Below are positions 54,384 to 61,221 of a stretch of 64,000 bases of DNA, in pieces. The stretch is from Micromonospora sp. NBC_01813. GTDB lineage: Bacteria; Actinomycetota; Actinomycetes; Mycobacteriales; Micromonosporaceae. The notes below the pieces were generated by a model, which had not been told where the DNA came from, did not search any database, and was given only the letters and a program-made list of their open reading frames with translations. Position numbers and translations under genes: made by a program. The stretch spans positions 1,490,501 through 1,554,500 of the forward strand of contig NZ_CP109067.1 of NCBI RefSeq assembly GCF_035917335.1, given 5' to 3'. Numbering within the stretch: position 1 is the first letter of the stretch; the number at the start of each line of letters is the position of its first letter.

Positions 54384-55565
54384 TCACACCACCACCATCC
54401 GTGGATACGGATGCCGCAGAAAATCGTGGTGCGAGATGTCCCACCCGTACGCCCCCGCCCGGCCGAACACCACCACGTCACCAGCCCGCAACCGGTCCAC
54501 CACCTGCCCCCGGCACAGCACGTCACGCGGCGTACACAACTCACCCACCACATCCACCGCCGCCGCCCGCACCTGCGGCCGCGCGAACGGATACGGCCAC
54601 CCCGACACCGGCAACACCACGAACGGATGGTCGTAACCCCACGCCGCCGGCAACCGGAAATGATGCGTCCCGCCCCGCAGCACCGCGAACCACCGGCCCT
54701 GCGTGCGCTTCACATCCACCACCTGCGCCGCGTACCAGCCCGCGTCCGCCACCAGCAACCGCCCCGGCTCGAACACCAGCCGCACCCCCGGGGGCACCAC
54801 CAACCCGGCCAGGCCCGCCCGCAGCACCGCCAAGTCGAACCGCCTCCCACCGGCGTAGTCCACCCCGAACCCGCCACCCACGTTCACGTACTCCACCGCC
54901 ACCCCGAACCGCCCACCGGCCGCCACCGCCCACGCCAGCGCATCGACCACGAACCGCGCGTGCGCCGCCGCGTCCAGATTGTTCGACACCGCGTGCAGGC
55001 TGAACCCCACCAGCCGCACCCCCGGCAACCCCGCCGCCACCGCCACCACCTCACCCAACCGCGCCTCGTCCACCCCGAACTGCGTCGCCACCCCCGCCAT
55101 CGCGTGACTACCCGCCAACCCACCCGCCGGCCGGTTCACCCGCACCGCCGCCTCCACCCGCACCCCCGCCGCCCGCGCCACCAGATCCAACCGCCGCAAC
55201 TCCAACACACTCTCCACGTTCACCAACGCACCCGCCGCCACCGCCGCCGCCAACTGCCCATCGGTCTTCGCCGGCCCACCGAACACCACCTGCCCGGCAC
55301 CCGCCGCCACCGCCGCCGCCAACTCACCCCCCGACGCCACCTCCACCCCGTCCACCACCCGCGCCAACTCCGCCACCACATCCGGATGCCCGTTGGCCTT
55401 CATCGCGTACAACAACACCGCACCCGGCGGCAACGCCGCCCGCACCGCCCCCGCCACCTCCCGCAACACCACCCGGTCGTACACGTACGCACACACCGGG
55501 GCGTCCCCGCCCACCAGCCCCGCCACCGCAGCCGCCACCCGCGGCGGCACCCCGACCGCCATCAC
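54384..55565 (-). CDS. Type III PLP decarboxylase of a siderophore operon
   Basis: 393 aa, ornithine/diaminopimelate decarboxylase-like barrel. LLYAMKANGHPDVV holds the PLP lysine; EYVNVGGGFGVDYAGG and RLVFEPGRLLVADAG bind the phosphate and substrate; ELCTPRDVL and DVVVFGRAGAYGWD are the C-terminal domain. Downstream of two NIS synthetases it parallels SbnH/AcsE, which decarboxylate a citryl-diaminopropionate intermediate. Its start overlaps the upstream synthetase stop. Confidence 0.83.
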   Translation of the reverse strand: MMAVGVPPRVAAAVAGLVGGDAPVCAYVYDRVVLREVAGAVRAALPPGAVLLYAMKANGHPDVVAELARVVDGVEVASGGELAAAVAAGAGQVVFGGPAKTDGQLAAAVAAGALVNVESVLELRRLDLVARAAGVRVEAAVRVNRPAGGLAGSHAMAGVATQFGVDEARLGEVVAVAAGLPGVRLVGFSLHAVSNNLDAAAHARFVVDALAWAVAAGGRFGVAVEYVNVGGGFGVDYAGGRRFDLAVLRAGLAGLVVPPGVRLVFEPGRLLVADAGWYAAQVVDVKRTQGRWFAVLRGGTHHFRLPAAWGYDHPFVVLPVSGWPYPFARPQVRAAAVDVVGELCTPRDVLCRGQVVDRLRAGDVVVFGRAGAYGWDISHHDFLRHPYPRMVVV

Positions 55566-57298
55566 CGCACCCCAACCGGCGGCCCGCCGACGAACCCGCC
55601 CGCACCCAGCGGATTACGCACCGGCACATACACATCACCCGCGCCCGTCAACCTCATCCGCACCAACGCCTTGTGCGCCACCATCGGCGCCGTCCACGCC
55701 GCATGATCCGCCGCCACCGCACCGGCACAACCCGGCACCCCCCGCAGACCCTCATACGTCTCATCCACCACCGCCCGCACCACCCGCCACGCCGCCGCCT
55801 CATCCACCCCGTGCGACGACACCAACCCCAACACCACCTCACCCAGATGCGCCTGCAACGCCGTATACCCCAACTTCGCCCGCATCACCGCCGCATCATC
55901 GGTGCCCACCACCGAACCCTGCGCCAACCCCACCGACACCCCCGCCGCCGCCAACCGCGGCACCAACACCCGCAACCCCGCGAAATCCCGCACCACCAGC
56001 CGGAACGGCAACCCATCGCGGAACGTCGGCAGGCAGTTCTGCAGATGCGCCTCCAACGCCACCCCGAACCGCGTCGCCAACCGCAGCAACGGCGGCAACA
56101 CCACCCGCGCGTACGCGTCCACGAACCCCAACGCCGCCGCCGACCCGTCGGCCACACCCCGAGCCCGCGCGAAATCCGCCACCCGGCCCGCCAACTCCCG
56201 CCCCGTCACCAACGCCACCCCCGGCACCGCCACCTCACCGGCCACCAACCGTCCCGCCAAACCGTCCCGCACGATCACCGACATGTCCCGCCCCGACCCC
56301 ACCGTCACCGCCGCCCCGGCCACCTCCGGCAACAACACCAACCGCGTCGCCGCCACCTCGTCACCGGCCACCAACGACGCCAACACCCGCGACAACACCG
56401 GGCCGTTACGGGTACTCGCCACCGAAATCGTCCGCCGCGTCGACGTCACCTGAATATCCACCGACACCTTCAGATACCGCCGCCGCCCATCCGCCCCCGG
56501 CGGCAACAACACCGTGCGGACCGCCGCCGTCGGCACCGCCGGCACCACCCCTGGCAGCAACCGCACCACCCCCGCATCGATCAGATCCGCGTACCGCCGA
56601 GCCACCACCTCCCGCTGCCACACATGCACCGGCTGCACCACCCACCCCGGCCCCACCACCGGAACCTGCGGATACCACCGCCCCAACTCCGCCGCCACAT
56701 CGTCACCGACATGCACATCCCGGCGCACCGCCACGAACCCCACCCCGGTCGCCGGCGACTCCACGTCATGCGCCAACACATCCGCCACCGACCACCCCAA
56801 CCGGGTACGCCCACACGGATGCAGATTGTGACCCGTCACCGCCCGCCGCTCCGCGACCACCGCCCACCCGTCCGGTCCATCCGCCACCACCGGGGGCCCC
56901 GGCCGCGCCACCGCCACCGCCAGATTCACCACCGCGTCGGCCAGCTCACCCGCCAACGCCCACCCCCGCCGGTCGCGCAGCAGCCCCGCCGCGAGCACCG
57001 CCAACGGATCGTCGACAGCACCCTCATCCACCACGAACCGGTCGAACCCGTGCCACCTGCCCCGGCCCCGCCACGACGACCGCGCCCCCGCCACATCCTC
57101 CCGACACAACGCGTCCACCAACCGCACCGCCACCACCCGCGCCGCCCACGGCACCGCCGCCCGGAACCCCGCCACCAACTCCGGCGCCACCCGCCCCAAC
57201 TCCGCCGCCGCCACCGCCACCGCGTCAGCCAACCCCACCGTCCCCCGCGCACACCCGCACGAACGACCAGCAGCCGCCACCACCCCCAACCCGGTCAT
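55562..57298 (-). CDS. IucA/IucC-family NIS siderophore synthetase (second)
   Basis: 578 aa. GHNLHPCGRTRLGWSVADVL, VQPVHVWQREVVARR, STRRTISVASTRNGPVLSRV and ALEAHLQNCLPTF are the adenylation and acceptor motifs; a C-terminal FhuF-like segment follows. It condenses a carboxylate (often citrate) with an amine or alcohol using ATP. ATG 57298 overlaps the upstream stop (ATGA); a longer frame to 57391 is unlikely. Confidence 0.87.
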   Translation of the reverse strand: MTGLGVVAAAGRSCGCARGTVGLADAVAVAAAELGRVAPELVAGFRAAVPWAARVVAVRLVDALCREDVAGARSSWRGRGRWHGFDRFVVDEGAVDDPLAVLAAGLLRDRRGWALAGELADAVVNLAVAVARPGPPVVADGPDGWAVVAERRAVTGHNLHPCGRTRLGWSVADVLAHDVESPATGVGFVAVRRDVHVGDDVAAELGRWYPQVPVVGPGWVVQPVHVWQREVVARRYADLIDAGVVRLLPGVVPAVPTAAVRTVLLPPGADGRRRYLKVSVDIQVTSTRRTISVASTRNGPVLSRVLASLVAGDEVAATRLVLLPEVAGAAVTVGSGRDMSVIVRDGLAGRLVAGEVAVPGVALVTGRELAGRVADFARARGVADGSAAALGFVDAYARVVLPPLLRLATRFGVALEAHLQNCLPTFRDGLPFRLVVRDFAGLRVLVPRLAAAGVSVGLAQGSVVGTDDAAVMRAKLGYTALQAHLGEVVLGLVSSHGVDEAAAWRVVRAVVDETYEGLRGVPGCAGAVAADHAAWTAPMVAHKALVRMRLTGAGDVYVPVRNPLGAGGFVGGPPVGVR

Positions 57299-59046
57299 CC
57301 CAAACCCGCCATCGGGTTCGCCACCCACGCCCACCGCGGCACCAGCGGATCCGCCGACAACCGCATCGACAACGTCGCCTTCACCGGCCACACCTGACCG
57401 AACACCGCCGCCGCCACCTCACCACGCACCACCACCGGCAACCCCGCCACCACCTCCCGCGCCACCTGCGCCACCCGCGACCACAACCGCTCCGGCTCCA
57501 CCCCGAACTCCCGCGCCAACACCGCCAACGGCTCACCCAACGCCGTCCCCACCGATGCCAACGCCGTCACCGCCACCTCCGCCGAATCCCCAACCGCCAC
57601 ATCACCATGCACCGGCGGCACCACCACCCCCGCCGCCGCCAACCGATCCACATCCAACCGCACACCCCCCACGTCCCGATACCACATCCCCACCAACCGC
57701 ACCCCCCGCCACACCAACACCACGTTCTGCCCATGCGCCTCCAACCCCACACCCAACCCCAACGCCCCCAGCACCGGCCCCAACAACACCCGCGCCAACT
57801 CACCCGCGAACACCACCGGATCACCGCCGTAACCCGCCCGCACCAACCCCGCCACCACCGACGGCCCACCCGGCACCCCCACCGGCGCCGCCAACGCCGC
57901 CACCGGCATCACCTGCACCCCCGCCGCCACCCGCGGCACCCGACGACGCACCACCGCCAACGACCGACACGGCACCCCGTCCACCACCACCGCACCCGCC
58001 GCCACCTCACGCAACACCCGCAACCCCGGCAGCCGCCGGGCCAACCCCACCAGCAGACCCGTCACCACCGGACCGTTGCGCACCGCCGCCGCCGACACCG
58101 TCCGCACCGCACTGGTCATCTGCACATCAACCGCCGTCTTCCACTGCCACGACCCATCCGCCACCGGCACCACCGTCCGCAACGACAACAACGGCCGCGC
58201 CCGCACCACCCGACCAGTGCGCCGCAACCACCCGTACGACCCCAACACGTGCTCCCGCTGCCACGGATGCACCGGCAACACCGGCGGCAACCCCGCCCCC
58301 GAACTCACCCACCGACCCGCCGGCACCGCCACCAACTCCAACTCCACCACCGGCCCATGCTCCGGCCCATACCGCAACACCTCCAGCGTCGACATCCCCA
58401 CCCGGGTCCGACACCCCGGATGCACCGGATGCCCATCCACCACCACCTGCTCCCACGCCACCGCCGACCGCACCAACCCGTCACCAGAACCGGACCCCCG
58501 CGCCACAGCCACCGCCCGCGCACCCCGCGCCAACGCCATGTTCGCCACACTGTTCGCCACCTCACCCGCCACCACACCACCACCGGCCAACCCCAACAAC
58601 GACACCAACTCCGCCGGATCCGCCACCGCCCGCCCCGCCACCGACACCCGCAACCCCGAATCCACCCCGGCGAACAACTCCGCACCGTCCGCCGGCCCCC
58701 GAACCTGCCGGCCATCGGCCAGCACCAGCACCAACTCCCCGCCGACCACCCGCCGACCCACCACCTGCGGCACCGGCTCCCGACCCAACGCACCCCACAA
58801 CCGGGCCAGCACCGCCGCCCGCGCCCCCGGCACCGCCGCGCTCACCGCCGGCACCAACTCCGGCCGCCACCGCCGCAACTGCGCCACCGTCGCCGACACG
58901 TCCGGACACCGCACCACCGACACCCCGCCTCCGCTGACCACACCAGCTCCCGACACCACCCCGGCAGGCACCGTCACCGCCCCCGGCGCCGACGCAGCCA
59001 CACCCCCCACCAACCGACCGCCACGAACAGCAGCGACGAACAGCAC
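57295..59046 (-). CDS. IucA/IucC-family NIS siderophore synthetase (first)
   Basis: 583 aa with GHPVHPGCRTRVGMSTLEVL, LPVHPWQREHVLGSYGW, SAVRTVSAAAVRNGPVVTGL and GLEAHGQNVVLVWRG. First gene of the operon. Start GTG 59046 is provisional; GTGs about 40 codons in also have purine-rich leaders. No DtxR/IdeR iron box was seen in the 58 bp to the divergent gene at 59105, and no transporter gene is adjacent. Confidence 0.85.
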   Translation of the reverse strand: MLFVAAVRGGRLVGGVAASAPGAVTVPAGVVSGAGVVSGGGVSVVRCPDVSATVAQLRRWRPELVPAVSAAVPGARAAVLARLWGALGREPVPQVVGRRVVGGELVLVLADGRQVRGPADGAELFAGVDSGLRVSVAGRAVADPAELVSLLGLAGGGVVAGEVANSVANMALARGARAVAVARGSGSGDGLVRSAVAWEQVVVDGHPVHPGCRTRVGMSTLEVLRYGPEHGPVVELELVAVPAGRWVSSGAGLPPVLPVHPWQREHVLGSYGWLRRTGRVVRARPLLSLRTVVPVADGSWQWKTAVDVQMTSAVRTVSAAAVRNGPVVTGLLVGLARRLPGLRVLREVAAGAVVVDGVPCRSLAVVRRRVPRVAAGVQVMPVAALAAPVGVPGGPSVVAGLVRAGYGGDPVVFAGELARVLLGPVLGALGLGVGLEAHGQNVVLVWRGVRLVGMWYRDVGGVRLDVDRLAAAGVVVPPVHGDVAVGDSAEVAVTALASVGTALGEPLAVLAREFGVEPERLWSRVAQVAREVVAGLPVVVRGEVAAAVFGQVWPVKATLSMRLSADPLVPRWAWVANPMAGLG

Positions 59047-59104
59047 AACGCCTTCACCACCATCCCGACACCCTTACACAACCCGCACCCCGTAGGGTGC
59101 TCCC

Positions 59105-59903
59105 GTGCGCATGGCCACCTTCAACGTGCTGCACGGGCGCTCACCGCGCGACGGCCGCGTCGACGCCGACCGGCTCACCACCGCGATCCGCCACCTCGAC
59201 ACCGACCTGCTCGCCCTGCAGGAAGTCGACCACGCCCAACCACGCTCCAACCACCTCGACCTCACCGCGCTCGCCGCCGCCGCACTCGACGCACCCACCC
59301 ACCCACCGCTTCGCCGCCGCACTCGTCGGCACCCCCGGTGACACCTTCCGCGTCCCCCGCCACGACCACGACGGCCACCACGAACCCTGCTACGGCATCA
59401 GCCTGATCAGCCGGCACCCCGCCACGCACTGGCAGGTCAACCGGCTCGACCCGGCCCCCGTACGCTCACCCGTCATCGTCGCCGACCCCACCCCCCGGCT
59501 GCTGCTGCTCCGCGACGAACCCCGCGTCCTGCTCACCGCCGTCCTGGCCACCCCGCACGGCCCGGTCACCGCCGCCGCCACCCACCTGTCCTTCGTCCCC
59601 GGCTGGAACCTGCGTCAACTCCGGGCCGCCATCCGCATCCTGCGGACCCTCCCGCCACCGAGGCTGCTCCTCGGCGACCTGAACATGCCCGCCGGCCTCG
59701 CCGCCGCAGCCACCGGCTGGCGGCCGCTGGGCCGCCGCGCCACCTACCCGGCGCCCCGACCCCGCGTCCAGCTCGACCACATCCTGCTCGACCCGCGCGG
59801 CGCGACCGCGGCACTCGCCGCCGTCACCTCGGTCGACACCCCGACGCTCGACGTCTCCGACCACCGCCCCCTGGTCGTCACCGTCGCGGCGCGGACCCGG
59901 TGA
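59105..59903 (+). pseudogene. Endonuclease/exonuclease/phosphatase-family gene, frameshifted at a CACC repeat
   Basis: The N-terminal part from GTG 59105 (MRMATFNVLHGRSPRDGRVD ... DLLALQEVDHAQPRSNHLDL) and the rest (HRFAAALVGTPGDTFRV ... LLLGDLNMPAG ... LDVSDHRPLVV, to 59903) are in different frames, meeting at 59292-59307. The EEP motifs NVLHG, QEVD, GDLNMP and SDHRPL are spread over both. Removing one CACC unit joins them as ALDAPTHRFAAALVG, a 265-aa protein. So the gene is broken as sequenced, phase variable, or affected by a sequencing error. Confidence 0.82.
59292..59307. repeat. CACC tetranucleotide repeat, four copies
   Basis: Four perfect tandem CACC units at the frameshift point of the EEP-family gene; loss of one unit restores the frame. 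Confidence 0.9.
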
Positions 59904-60897
59904 CCCCGTCGACGACCTGCTGCAACGACCGGTTCGACCGGTTGGCGCGGACCGCCGCCCGTTGCTGGTCGGCCGTCACCTCGATGTAGTTCTGGCTCGC
60001 CGCCAGGCTCGCGTGCCCCAGCAGCCGCATGATCTCGGCCGCGTGCGCCCCGTCCTCGGCCAGCCGGGTGGCGAACGTGTGACGCAACGCGTGCAGTTGA
60101 GCACCACGCGGCACCCGTTCGGTGACGCCGGCCCGCCGGAAACAGGCCCGTACCAGGTACTGCAGGCCACCGCGGCGCAGACCGTCGCCGCGCCGGTCGA
60201 CCAGCAGGGTCGTGTCGGATCGCACCGACCGGTCGCCGAACCGTACCCGCCGGCTGTCGAGGTAGCCGTCGATCACGGCGTCCAGCGCCGGTTCGATCGG
60301 CACCGTCCGCAGCCGTCCGCCCTTGCCGGCCACCTCCAGACGCCGCTCACCATGACGACCGGCGATCGAACCGACCCGCAACTCGAGCATCTCGCCGAGT
60401 CGTAGTCCGGCGCACAACGCGAGCGCCACGACGGCGAGATCCCGCTCCGGCCAGGGGTCACGCTGGCGTTCGTCGCGACGGGCGGCGCCAGCGAGCACCA
60501 ACTCGGGGGTCTGCTCGCCGCGTAGTGGCTTCGGCAGCGGCAGGGGAGCCCTGGGACGACCCACCGCAGGCATCGGGTTACCGGCGGCTGCACCCTCGGC
60601 GACCAGGAAGTTGAAGAACGAGTTCCAGGTCGACCAGGCCCGGTGCACCGAGGCGGGGGAGCGAGGCGAGGCGAAGCGCGCGAACGCCGCCCGCAGCTGC
60701 CGCTGCCCGATGGTGGACAGTGCGATCTCCGCCCAGGCGGGGGGAGTGGGGTCGATCGCGTCGCCGATCAGTCGCAGCACGGCGACGAGGTCCCGGCGGT
60801 ACGCCTGCAGGGTGTGGGGGGAGGGTTTGCGGGTGGTCCGGTCGGCGAGGAAGCCTTCGACCGCCTCGCCAGCCAAAATAACTCCATTGTGGTGCAT
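59878..60897 (-). CDS. Tyrosine site-specific recombinase (XerC/D-like)
   Basis: 339 aa. A SAM-like N-terminal domain (KPSPHTLQAYRRDLVAVLRL) precedes the catalytic domain with Arg166 (CAGLRLGE), Lys192 (AGKGGRL), His269 and Arg272 (LHALRHTFATRL), His295 (LLGHASL) and Tyr304 (ASQNYIEV): all catalytic residues are present. ATG 60897 is inside a 28-bp palindrome (60889-60916) and lacks a ribosome site, so translation may be leaderless or recombinase binding may repress it. The frame is open to 61152, but this start matches the family length. It overlaps the EEP gene's end by 26 bp. Confidence 0.88.
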   Translation of the reverse strand: MHHNGVILAGEAVEGFLADRTTRKPSPHTLQAYRRDLVAVLRLIGDAIDPTPPAWAEIALSTIGQRQLRAAFARFASPRSPASVHRAWSTWNSFFNFLVAEGAAAGNPMPAVGRPRAPLPLPKPLRGEQTPELVLAGAARRDERQRDPWPERDLAVVALALCAGLRLGEMLELRVGSIAGRHGERRLEVAGKGGRLRTVPIEPALDAVIDGYLDSRRVRFGDRSVRSDTTLLVDRRGDGLRRGGLQYLVRACFRRAGVTERVPRGAQLHALRHTFATRLAEDGAHAAEIMRLLGHASLAASQNYIEVTADQQRAAVRANRSNRSLQQVVDGVTGSAPRR

Positions 60898-60916
60898 AAG
60901 GGATATTATGCACCAC
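60889..60916. other. 11-6-11 palindrome, candidate recombinase site
   Basis: GTGGTGCATAA (60889-60899), spacer GGGATA (60900-60905) and TTATGCACCAC (60906-60916). The 11-bp arms are perfect inverted repeats with a 6-bp centre, the geometry of Xer core sites. It covers the start codon of the adjacent recombinase gene. AT-rich in a GC-rich region. Confidence 0.7.
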
Positions 60917-61193: not shown

Positions 61194-61221
61194 AGTTGAC
61201 ATAATGTAAATTATCGAATCG
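61194..61221 (-). other. dif-like Xer recombination site
   Basis: On the minus strand it reads CGATTCGATAA, TTTACA, TTATGTCAACT: an 11-6-11 site whose second arm (TTATGTCAA) matches the XerD arm of actinobacterial and E. coli dif (TTATGTTAAAT). It is AT-rich in its surroundings and about 300 bp upstream of the recombinase start. If it is the chromosomal dif, this window lies at the replication terminus. Confidence 0.7.

Follow-up and report, generated by a model that had tools for sequence, protein, structure and literature searches.

In Micromonospora sp. NBC_01813, a perfect palindrome lies over the start codon of a tyrosine recombinase gene and 277 bp from a canonical chromosomal dif. It is likely, with a probability that we put at about two in three, that this palindrome serves a third Xer system, one with a single recombinase, as its cognate recombination site beside dif. 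Half-sites that covary among relatives, an asymmetric 6-bp spacer, and intact catalytic residues fit the action of one recombinase on both arms, and a single site on each chromosome is in keeping with exchange between sisters or inside a dimer, the mode known from dif.

The palindrome, the start codon, and the neighboring dif

The window referred to below is the whole stretch of DNA that was analyzed, 64,000 nucleotides in length. The palindrome, at 60889-60916 (no strand assigned), reads GTGGTGCATAA-GGGATA-TTATGCACCAC, and the 11-6-11 architecture reported in an earlier note on this DNA is exact. A scan of the window allowing up to three mismatches returned this palindrome as the sole match, and such a palindrome arose in 0/100 dinucleotide shuffles. 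Its core, TGCATAATNNNNNTTATGCA, is present as a single copy in the 7.63-Mb genome (reversed-pattern control, 0). The recombinase gene, recognized through its open reading frame, Pfam domains, profile matches, and catalytic residues, lies on the minus strand at 59878-60897 and encodes a protein of 339 amino acids. Its ATG (60895-60897) falls inside one arm of the palindrome, so that the overlap with a start codon that had been claimed is real, and relatives support this start. The offset between site and start codon is identical in 58 of 69 tabulated sites (and off by two bases in G007), which makes this ATG the likely true start. In six relatives, translation could not begin upstream of the site, since the spacer has an in-frame stop codon two codons ahead of the ATG (TGA in L101, L107, L110, L125, and L126; TAG in L106), which adds to the credibility of a start within the site. 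A candidate -10 hexamer, CATAAT, was read from the minus strand at 60905-60910, within the palindrome and 7 nt 5' of the ATG, and inspection by eye gave no ribosome-binding site before this ATG; together these suggest a leaderless recombinase transcript that would begin inside the site.

Two neighboring features were seen by eye. An endonuclease/exonuclease/phosphatase-like gene (59097-59903, plus strand) converges on the recombinase gene; its start (59105-59341) and its end are read in different frames, and comparable gene ends are seen beside the recombinase in several relatives. Two long adjacent open reading frames on the minus strand (55562-59046) are siderophore synthetase-like.

The canonical dif, which the earlier note had missed, is found at 61194-61221 and, in minus-strand reading, consists of a XerC arm (CGATTCGATAA), the spacer TTTACA, and a XerD arm (TTATGTCAACT). 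It agrees with the actinobacterial dif as represented by the Frankia alni sequence quoted in PMC3025954, and its 21-base pattern occurs as a single copy in the genome. On the 7.63-Mb chromosome, dnaA lies at 5.49 Mb and dif at 1.55 Mb, a separation of 0.484 of the total length. Among 17 chromosomes of genomes carrying the recombinase (carriers), taken as single contigs or as one large contig, the dif-dnaA distance was 0.47-0.50 of the length in 16 and 0.38 in G038. As dif is roughly opposite dnaA, the window contains the replication terminus. The palindrome itself does not have the two different half-sites of a canonical dif, its arms being symmetric here and covarying in relatives, and dif is a separate element. 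Recombination between the palindrome and dif was considered and rejected. Across 66 palindrome-dif pairs (G080, with an odd dif, was left out), spacer likeness within a genome was hardly above that in shuffled genomes, with 738/2000 as high for the same strand and 86/2000 for the opposite strand, and a palindrome spacer unlike that of dif argues against exchange between both sites.

Further tyrosine recombinases were seen near the terminus. Outside the window, at G000:C1:1616016-1616861, this genome has a tyrosine recombinase gene 64 kb from dif whose product is 35% identical to the third recombinase. Several relatives (e.g., G028, G014, G009, G038, G042, and G012) have XerD-model matches of ~155 bits at distances of 2-45 kb from dif or from the site; that these form a common family is only putative. 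Eight Micromonosporaceae genomes (G017, G019, G020, G022, G023, G025, G036, and G044) had no XerD-model match above ~150 bits, and neither the exact-pattern dif nor the third recombinase at the cut-off. These may have linear chromosomes or another system.

Conservation of the site and its position near dif

The core was found once each in 30 of 121 genomes (control, 0), in every case within ~250 bp of a recombinase match. An invertible switch would have two recombining copies; the core is single-copy in this genome and in 30/30 relatives having it, and its spacer is unlike that of dif, which together speak against the inversion and promoter switching proposed in the earlier note. A wider definition of the element, ATAA-N6-TTAT with at least 7 of 11 symmetric arm positions, was satisfied at 69 of 72 distinct loci (41 genomes and 31 named loci; L102, on the same contig as G061, was left out before all counts). 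Conservation upstream of orthologous recombinase genes, a question posed beforehand, is thus found at the shared start-codon offset described above; besides those sites and that of G007, the remaining ten lie 44 bp to 3.1 kb upstream of the gene, the largest distance being in G051. Three loci lacked the element as defined. Further reading of G010 gave a site ~9.4 kb from the gene whose distance to dif is 290 bp; L099 has a relaxed form with one inner arm altered; and L129 has no element within its 4-kb flank.

The arms, as claimed, are perfectly inverted in the window, but this does not hold generally: symmetry was 11/11 in only 12 of the 69 sites, at least 9 in 42, 8 or fewer in 27, and 7 in 5. 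Counted inward from the outer end of the arm, positions 3, 4, and 5 covaried across 57 different sites (0/5000 shuffles each, the shuffles ignoring relatedness), and the outermost positions 1 and 2 showed no covariation. When the 46 sites with a TGCATAA core were considered, position 4 covaried (1/5000) and position 3 did so less clearly (52/5000), again with shuffles that ignore relatedness. Whole arms are also swapped jointly, as in G032 (TTTCCACATAA/TTATGTGGAAA); TTGATGGATAA/TTATCCATCAA is a further alternative pair, and one Micromonosporaceae subclade regularly has A opposite G at position 5.

Measured at 67 sites, the element lies 229-1799 bp from dif (median 0.43 kb), with one at 5374 bp (G015), and the orientation of dif relative to the gene goes both ways (59 vs 8). 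In the first sample, among genomes with dif in the stretch read, 39 of 40 carriers and 0 of 31 non-carriers had an element at most 2 kb from dif; in the non-carrier G029, a palindrome symmetric at 9 of 11 positions lies 5.5 kb from dif. At L295 and L300, on contigs of ~200 kb, the site adjoins the gene and no dif was found in the stretch. Proximity to dif, together with the two strong XerD-model matches of all sampled carriers (below), could also suit an accessory role, in which the recombinase would bridge sister termini or regulate XerCD at dif without strand exchange at its own site. Plasmid cer, with its accessory sites, is a model for this. We consider such a role unlikely: the catalytic residues of the recombinase are invariant, the variable distance and either orientation of dif show no fixed geometry and argue against a fixed complex with it, and the sites of L295 and L300 accompany the gene in stretches where no dif was found.

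At the level of the order, a search with a profile built on an alignment of 40 of the 72 proteins gave a recombinase match (E<=1e-70) in 83 of 298 genomes, a patchy distribution. The loci read at this level comprised 31 new ones from family f15, which is probably Pseudonocardiaceae as named Streptoalloteichus rows group with it, 6 from family f8, and 30 mostly of one Micromonosporaceae genus (among them the previously read G009, G050, G069, and G014, the last from another genus). The element was near the gene at 20/31, 4/6, and 30/30 of these loci, respectively; the two f8 loci left over have it 0.35-0.40 kb from dif, although 4.0 and 8.4 kb separate it from the gene. In the other 11 f15 genomes, both the element and dif were missing up to ~9 kb from the gene. 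With a pattern built from other genomes and up to two mismatches allowed, each of these 11 was found to have a site 338-613 bp from dif; the pattern gave one site in nine genomes and two in G303 and G177. Gene and site are separated by 143 kb to 1.57 Mb in six of them (on one contig) and lie on different contigs in five. As the site is beside dif while the gene is distant, it is uncoupled from the promoter of the gene and tied to dif.

These distant sites bear directly on the autorepression operator envisaged in the earlier note. If the palindrome were an operator only, the recombinase or XerC/XerD would bind it and repress the recombinase promoter, with no recombination. Here the site does span a possible -10 and the start codon, the same offset recurs in the 58 sites noted above, and a leaderless start is plausible. 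However, an autorepressor site would be kept in the promoter of the gene that it controls, whereas in 11/11 of these genomes the site stays by dif even though 0.14-1.57 Mb separate it from the gene or the two are on different contigs, and lesser separations of 3.1 kb (G051) and ~9.4 kb (G010) occur elsewhere. There is no reason for an operator to remain near dif. Nor was any gene common to the neighborhoods of the 11 distant sites (the largest cluster was present at 4/11 loci), and a role as the promoter of a common neighbor gene was rejected on that ground. Operator function alone is therefore very unlikely and was rejected as the main role, the site tracking dif and not the gene; autorepression in the lineage of the window is possible. 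An RNA hairpin over the start codon was likewise dropped, as the element also occurs far from the gene and without a common neighbor gene.

The pattern TGSATAA-N6-TTATSCA, written after the carrier sites had been seen, was present in 88 of the 298 genomes, that is, in 83/83 carriers and 5/215 non-carriers (reversed control, 0 in the genomes listed). Since the pattern was derived from carriers, the independent evidence lies in its near absence elsewhere and in its link to dif. A stricter count is 82/83, because the hit in G010 lies elsewhere and is probably unrelated, the likely real site of this genome being more divergent. Three of the pattern-positive non-carriers (G151, G277, and G332) are fragmented assemblies (350-610 contigs) of a carrier genus, and the other two (G231 and G248) belong to genus g51, which mixes carriers and genomes with neither gene nor site. 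Gene and site occupy the same 18 of 77 genera (18/18 vs 0/59 others; g5 rests on G010). Terminus position and palindromic form would suit many DNA-binding proteins, and one could imagine the site as the target of an unrelated terminus-organizing protein that co-occurs with the recombinase by chance. The agreement by genus, the Xer-type spacing, and the joint presence of gene and site on some plasmids make such a coincidence exceedingly improbable.

The third recombinase and its plasmid relatives

The window protein has the Pfam domains Phage_integrase (PF00589) and Phage_int_SAM_1 (PF02899), and thus the SAM-like N-terminal domain and catalytic hexad of the Xer/phage integrase family. The catalytic R-K-H-R-H-Y is complete in 72/72 proteins, the window protein included and none left out. 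Its closest solved relative is XerD (E 4.5e-16), with a weak likeness to XerH (E 4e-7), and its structure is predicted with confidence (mean pLDDT of 88.7, pTM of 0.64). Of 121 genomes, 41, including this one, have such a gene, in one copy each (E<=1e-60); within Micromonosporaceae the count is 39/73. The same genome also encodes XerD (2016321, 307 bits) and a protein named XerC-like in this analysis (3076552, 261.5 bits; both with the XerD model), to which the window recombinase is 34% and 36% identical, respectively. Two strong XerD-model matches, XerD and XerC-like, are present in 27/27 carriers of a 73-genome sample (one partial in G007, G034, G035, and G086). The third recombinase is an ortholog of neither, as the gene tree separates both from 95 other rows. 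In G007 the recombinase at L167:4665-5662 is seemingly frameshifted after residue 55, with two matches in different frames; its site is still 10/11 symmetric.

The tree contained 98 rows with three outgroup proteins and omitted 12 proteins by name; it took 29 of the 37 loci of the f15 and f8 set, and the 30 loci read largely from a single Micromonosporaceae genus were left out. Copies from f8 group with plasmid copies (100/99), and most Actinoplanes-type copies group together (98/96). Copies from the family of the window organism fall in more than one place, f15 requires two changes, and the deep forks are weak. From this untidy tree and its weak deep forks, some horizontal movement is possible.

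Homologs of the recombinase were found on 60 plasmid records, mostly of Mycobacterium, Mycolicibacterium, and Rhodococcus (E<=1e-40). The f8 relatives include contigs of ~200 kb, of which that of G079 corresponds, judged by its length and an identity of 100%, to plasmid NZ_CP092363.2 of Mycolicibacterium crocinum. Three of six plasmid stretches have the element, as defined above, upstream of the gene: L332 (9/11), L333 (10), and L334 (11/11), the last with the new arms CTGCTAGATAA/TTATCTAGCAG. Judged by eye, one inner arm of the L331 element is altered, and only a half-site is present in L329 and L330. This module-like behavior, seen in part of the stretches, fits a recombinase with its own site, and one might guess at a plasmid role in multimer resolution. 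At least two element copies, with spacers that differ between copies, were seen in the f8 genomes G196, G079, and G272, on contigs of ~200 kb. G196 has four sites that differ in their spacers, two of them chromosomal and two small-contig; those on its large contig lie 0.9 and 7.2 kb from dif, and its recombinase match is on the small contig.

The plasmid homologs, the multiple sites of some f8 genomes, and a gene tree that departs from the families could also be explained if the palindrome were the attachment site of an IMEX-like integrative element that exploits the terminus, the integrase gene of that element having since become domesticated. Elements of this kind are known to target dif regions (PMC5357621). 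This origin is improbable: the core site is single in 30/30 relatives having it, with no flanking pair there. A search of 50,697 phage records gave no homolog of the recombinase at E<=1e-20, and a phage origin was rejected.

A proposed second Xer system at the terminus

The preferred reading, a third Xer system with its own site, can be set out as follows. Two copies of the enzyme would bind the two half-sites, and the asymmetric 6-bp spacer would set the direction of the site. Two such sites, on sister chromosomes or on the halves of a dimer, would then be synapsed and recombined by the single enzyme near dif, at the terminus, where the DNA pumps of the division septum gather the sister termini. 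The system would be parallel to, or a backup for, XerC/XerD/dif in chromosome unlinking. In the lineage of the window, where the start codon and probably the promoter are inside the site, binding would probably also repress the gene. Binding, recombination, dimer resolution, and autorepression are all steps that we infer from sequence comparison. The proposal of the earlier note that the site is the target of this recombinase acting alone, in the manner of Xer/dif, gains good though indirect support from the co-occurrence of gene and site, the 6-bp spacing, the covarying arms, and the invariant catalytic residues; the adjacent dif had no place in that proposal. Symmetric arms should be no obstacle, as an engineered palindromic difH was recombined by XerH at 29.4%, compared with 9.9% for natural difH (PMC5241119). 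Several observations weigh against this reading, including the XerD-model pair already present in all sampled carriers, the patchy distribution, the many imperfect sites, the site of G015 at 5.4 kb from dif, the lack of an element in L129, the less clear covariation of position 3 among the TGCATAA sites, the half-sites and the altered inner arm on plasmids, the multiple sites of G196, and the scatter in the gene tree of copies from the family of the window organism.

Several known systems resemble the one proposed here. The layout of 11-6-11, the inner arms ATAA/TTAT, and the terminus position are shared with XerC/XerD/dif, whereas the symmetric arms, the separate recombinase, the outer arms, and the spacer differ. 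XerS/difSL of streptococci and lactococci likewise pairs a single tyrosine recombinase with a site adjoining its gene (PMC5357621), but difSL is 31 bp long with an 11-bp center, and accounts of XerS present it as a single-enzyme alternative to XerCD, while here XerD, XerC-like, and dif are present too. In Helicobacter and Campylobacter, one enzyme, XerH, acts on both arms of difH, and a palindromic difH variant is functional (PMC5241119); natural difH, however, is asymmetric and is the sole dif, unlike the near-symmetric arms alongside a canonical dif seen here. XerL/dif of Legionella and Coxiella is also a single-enzyme system, with a Coxiella plasmid site adjoining the gene (PMC9765430), although in the accessible account it is described in place of XerCD and not alongside. 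Genes called xerC are mostly near dif across bacteria (PMC3025954). A gene beside its site at the terminus, as is typical of single-recombinase Xer systems, is found here in the 58 of 69 sites at the start codon, with the 11 f15 genomes as the exception. Replacement of XerC and XerD, another trait of such systems, is not seen in the sampled carriers. Of the readings considered, a second system of Xer type next to dif has the best support; unlike XerS, XerH, and XerL, it accompanies XerCD and dif and does not replace them. Titles and abstract openings, with few subscription papers among them, gave no description, for actinobacteria, of a third recombinase or of another site next to dif.

Published accounts, as far as their accessible portions go, have one dimer-resolution system per chromosome, which is XerCD/dif or, in its stead, a single enzyme. 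In the present case XerCD/dif shares its location with a second Xer-type enzyme and site, in at least two actinobacterial families, which include many antibiotic producers. Whether many actinobacteria have two independent terminus unlinking systems, XerCD/dif and a single enzyme with a near-palindromic site a few hundred bases off, with a relative of the latter serving large mycobacterial and rhodococcal plasmids, is a broader proposition for which we see even chances. The naturally symmetric Xer site provides material for the study of strand-order choice, and the compact pair of recombinase and site might become a genetic tool in actinobacteria. The coexistence also opens to test why the terminus would need two systems, be it for septation of multigenomic hyphae, for sporulation, or for a different control by the septal DNA pump.
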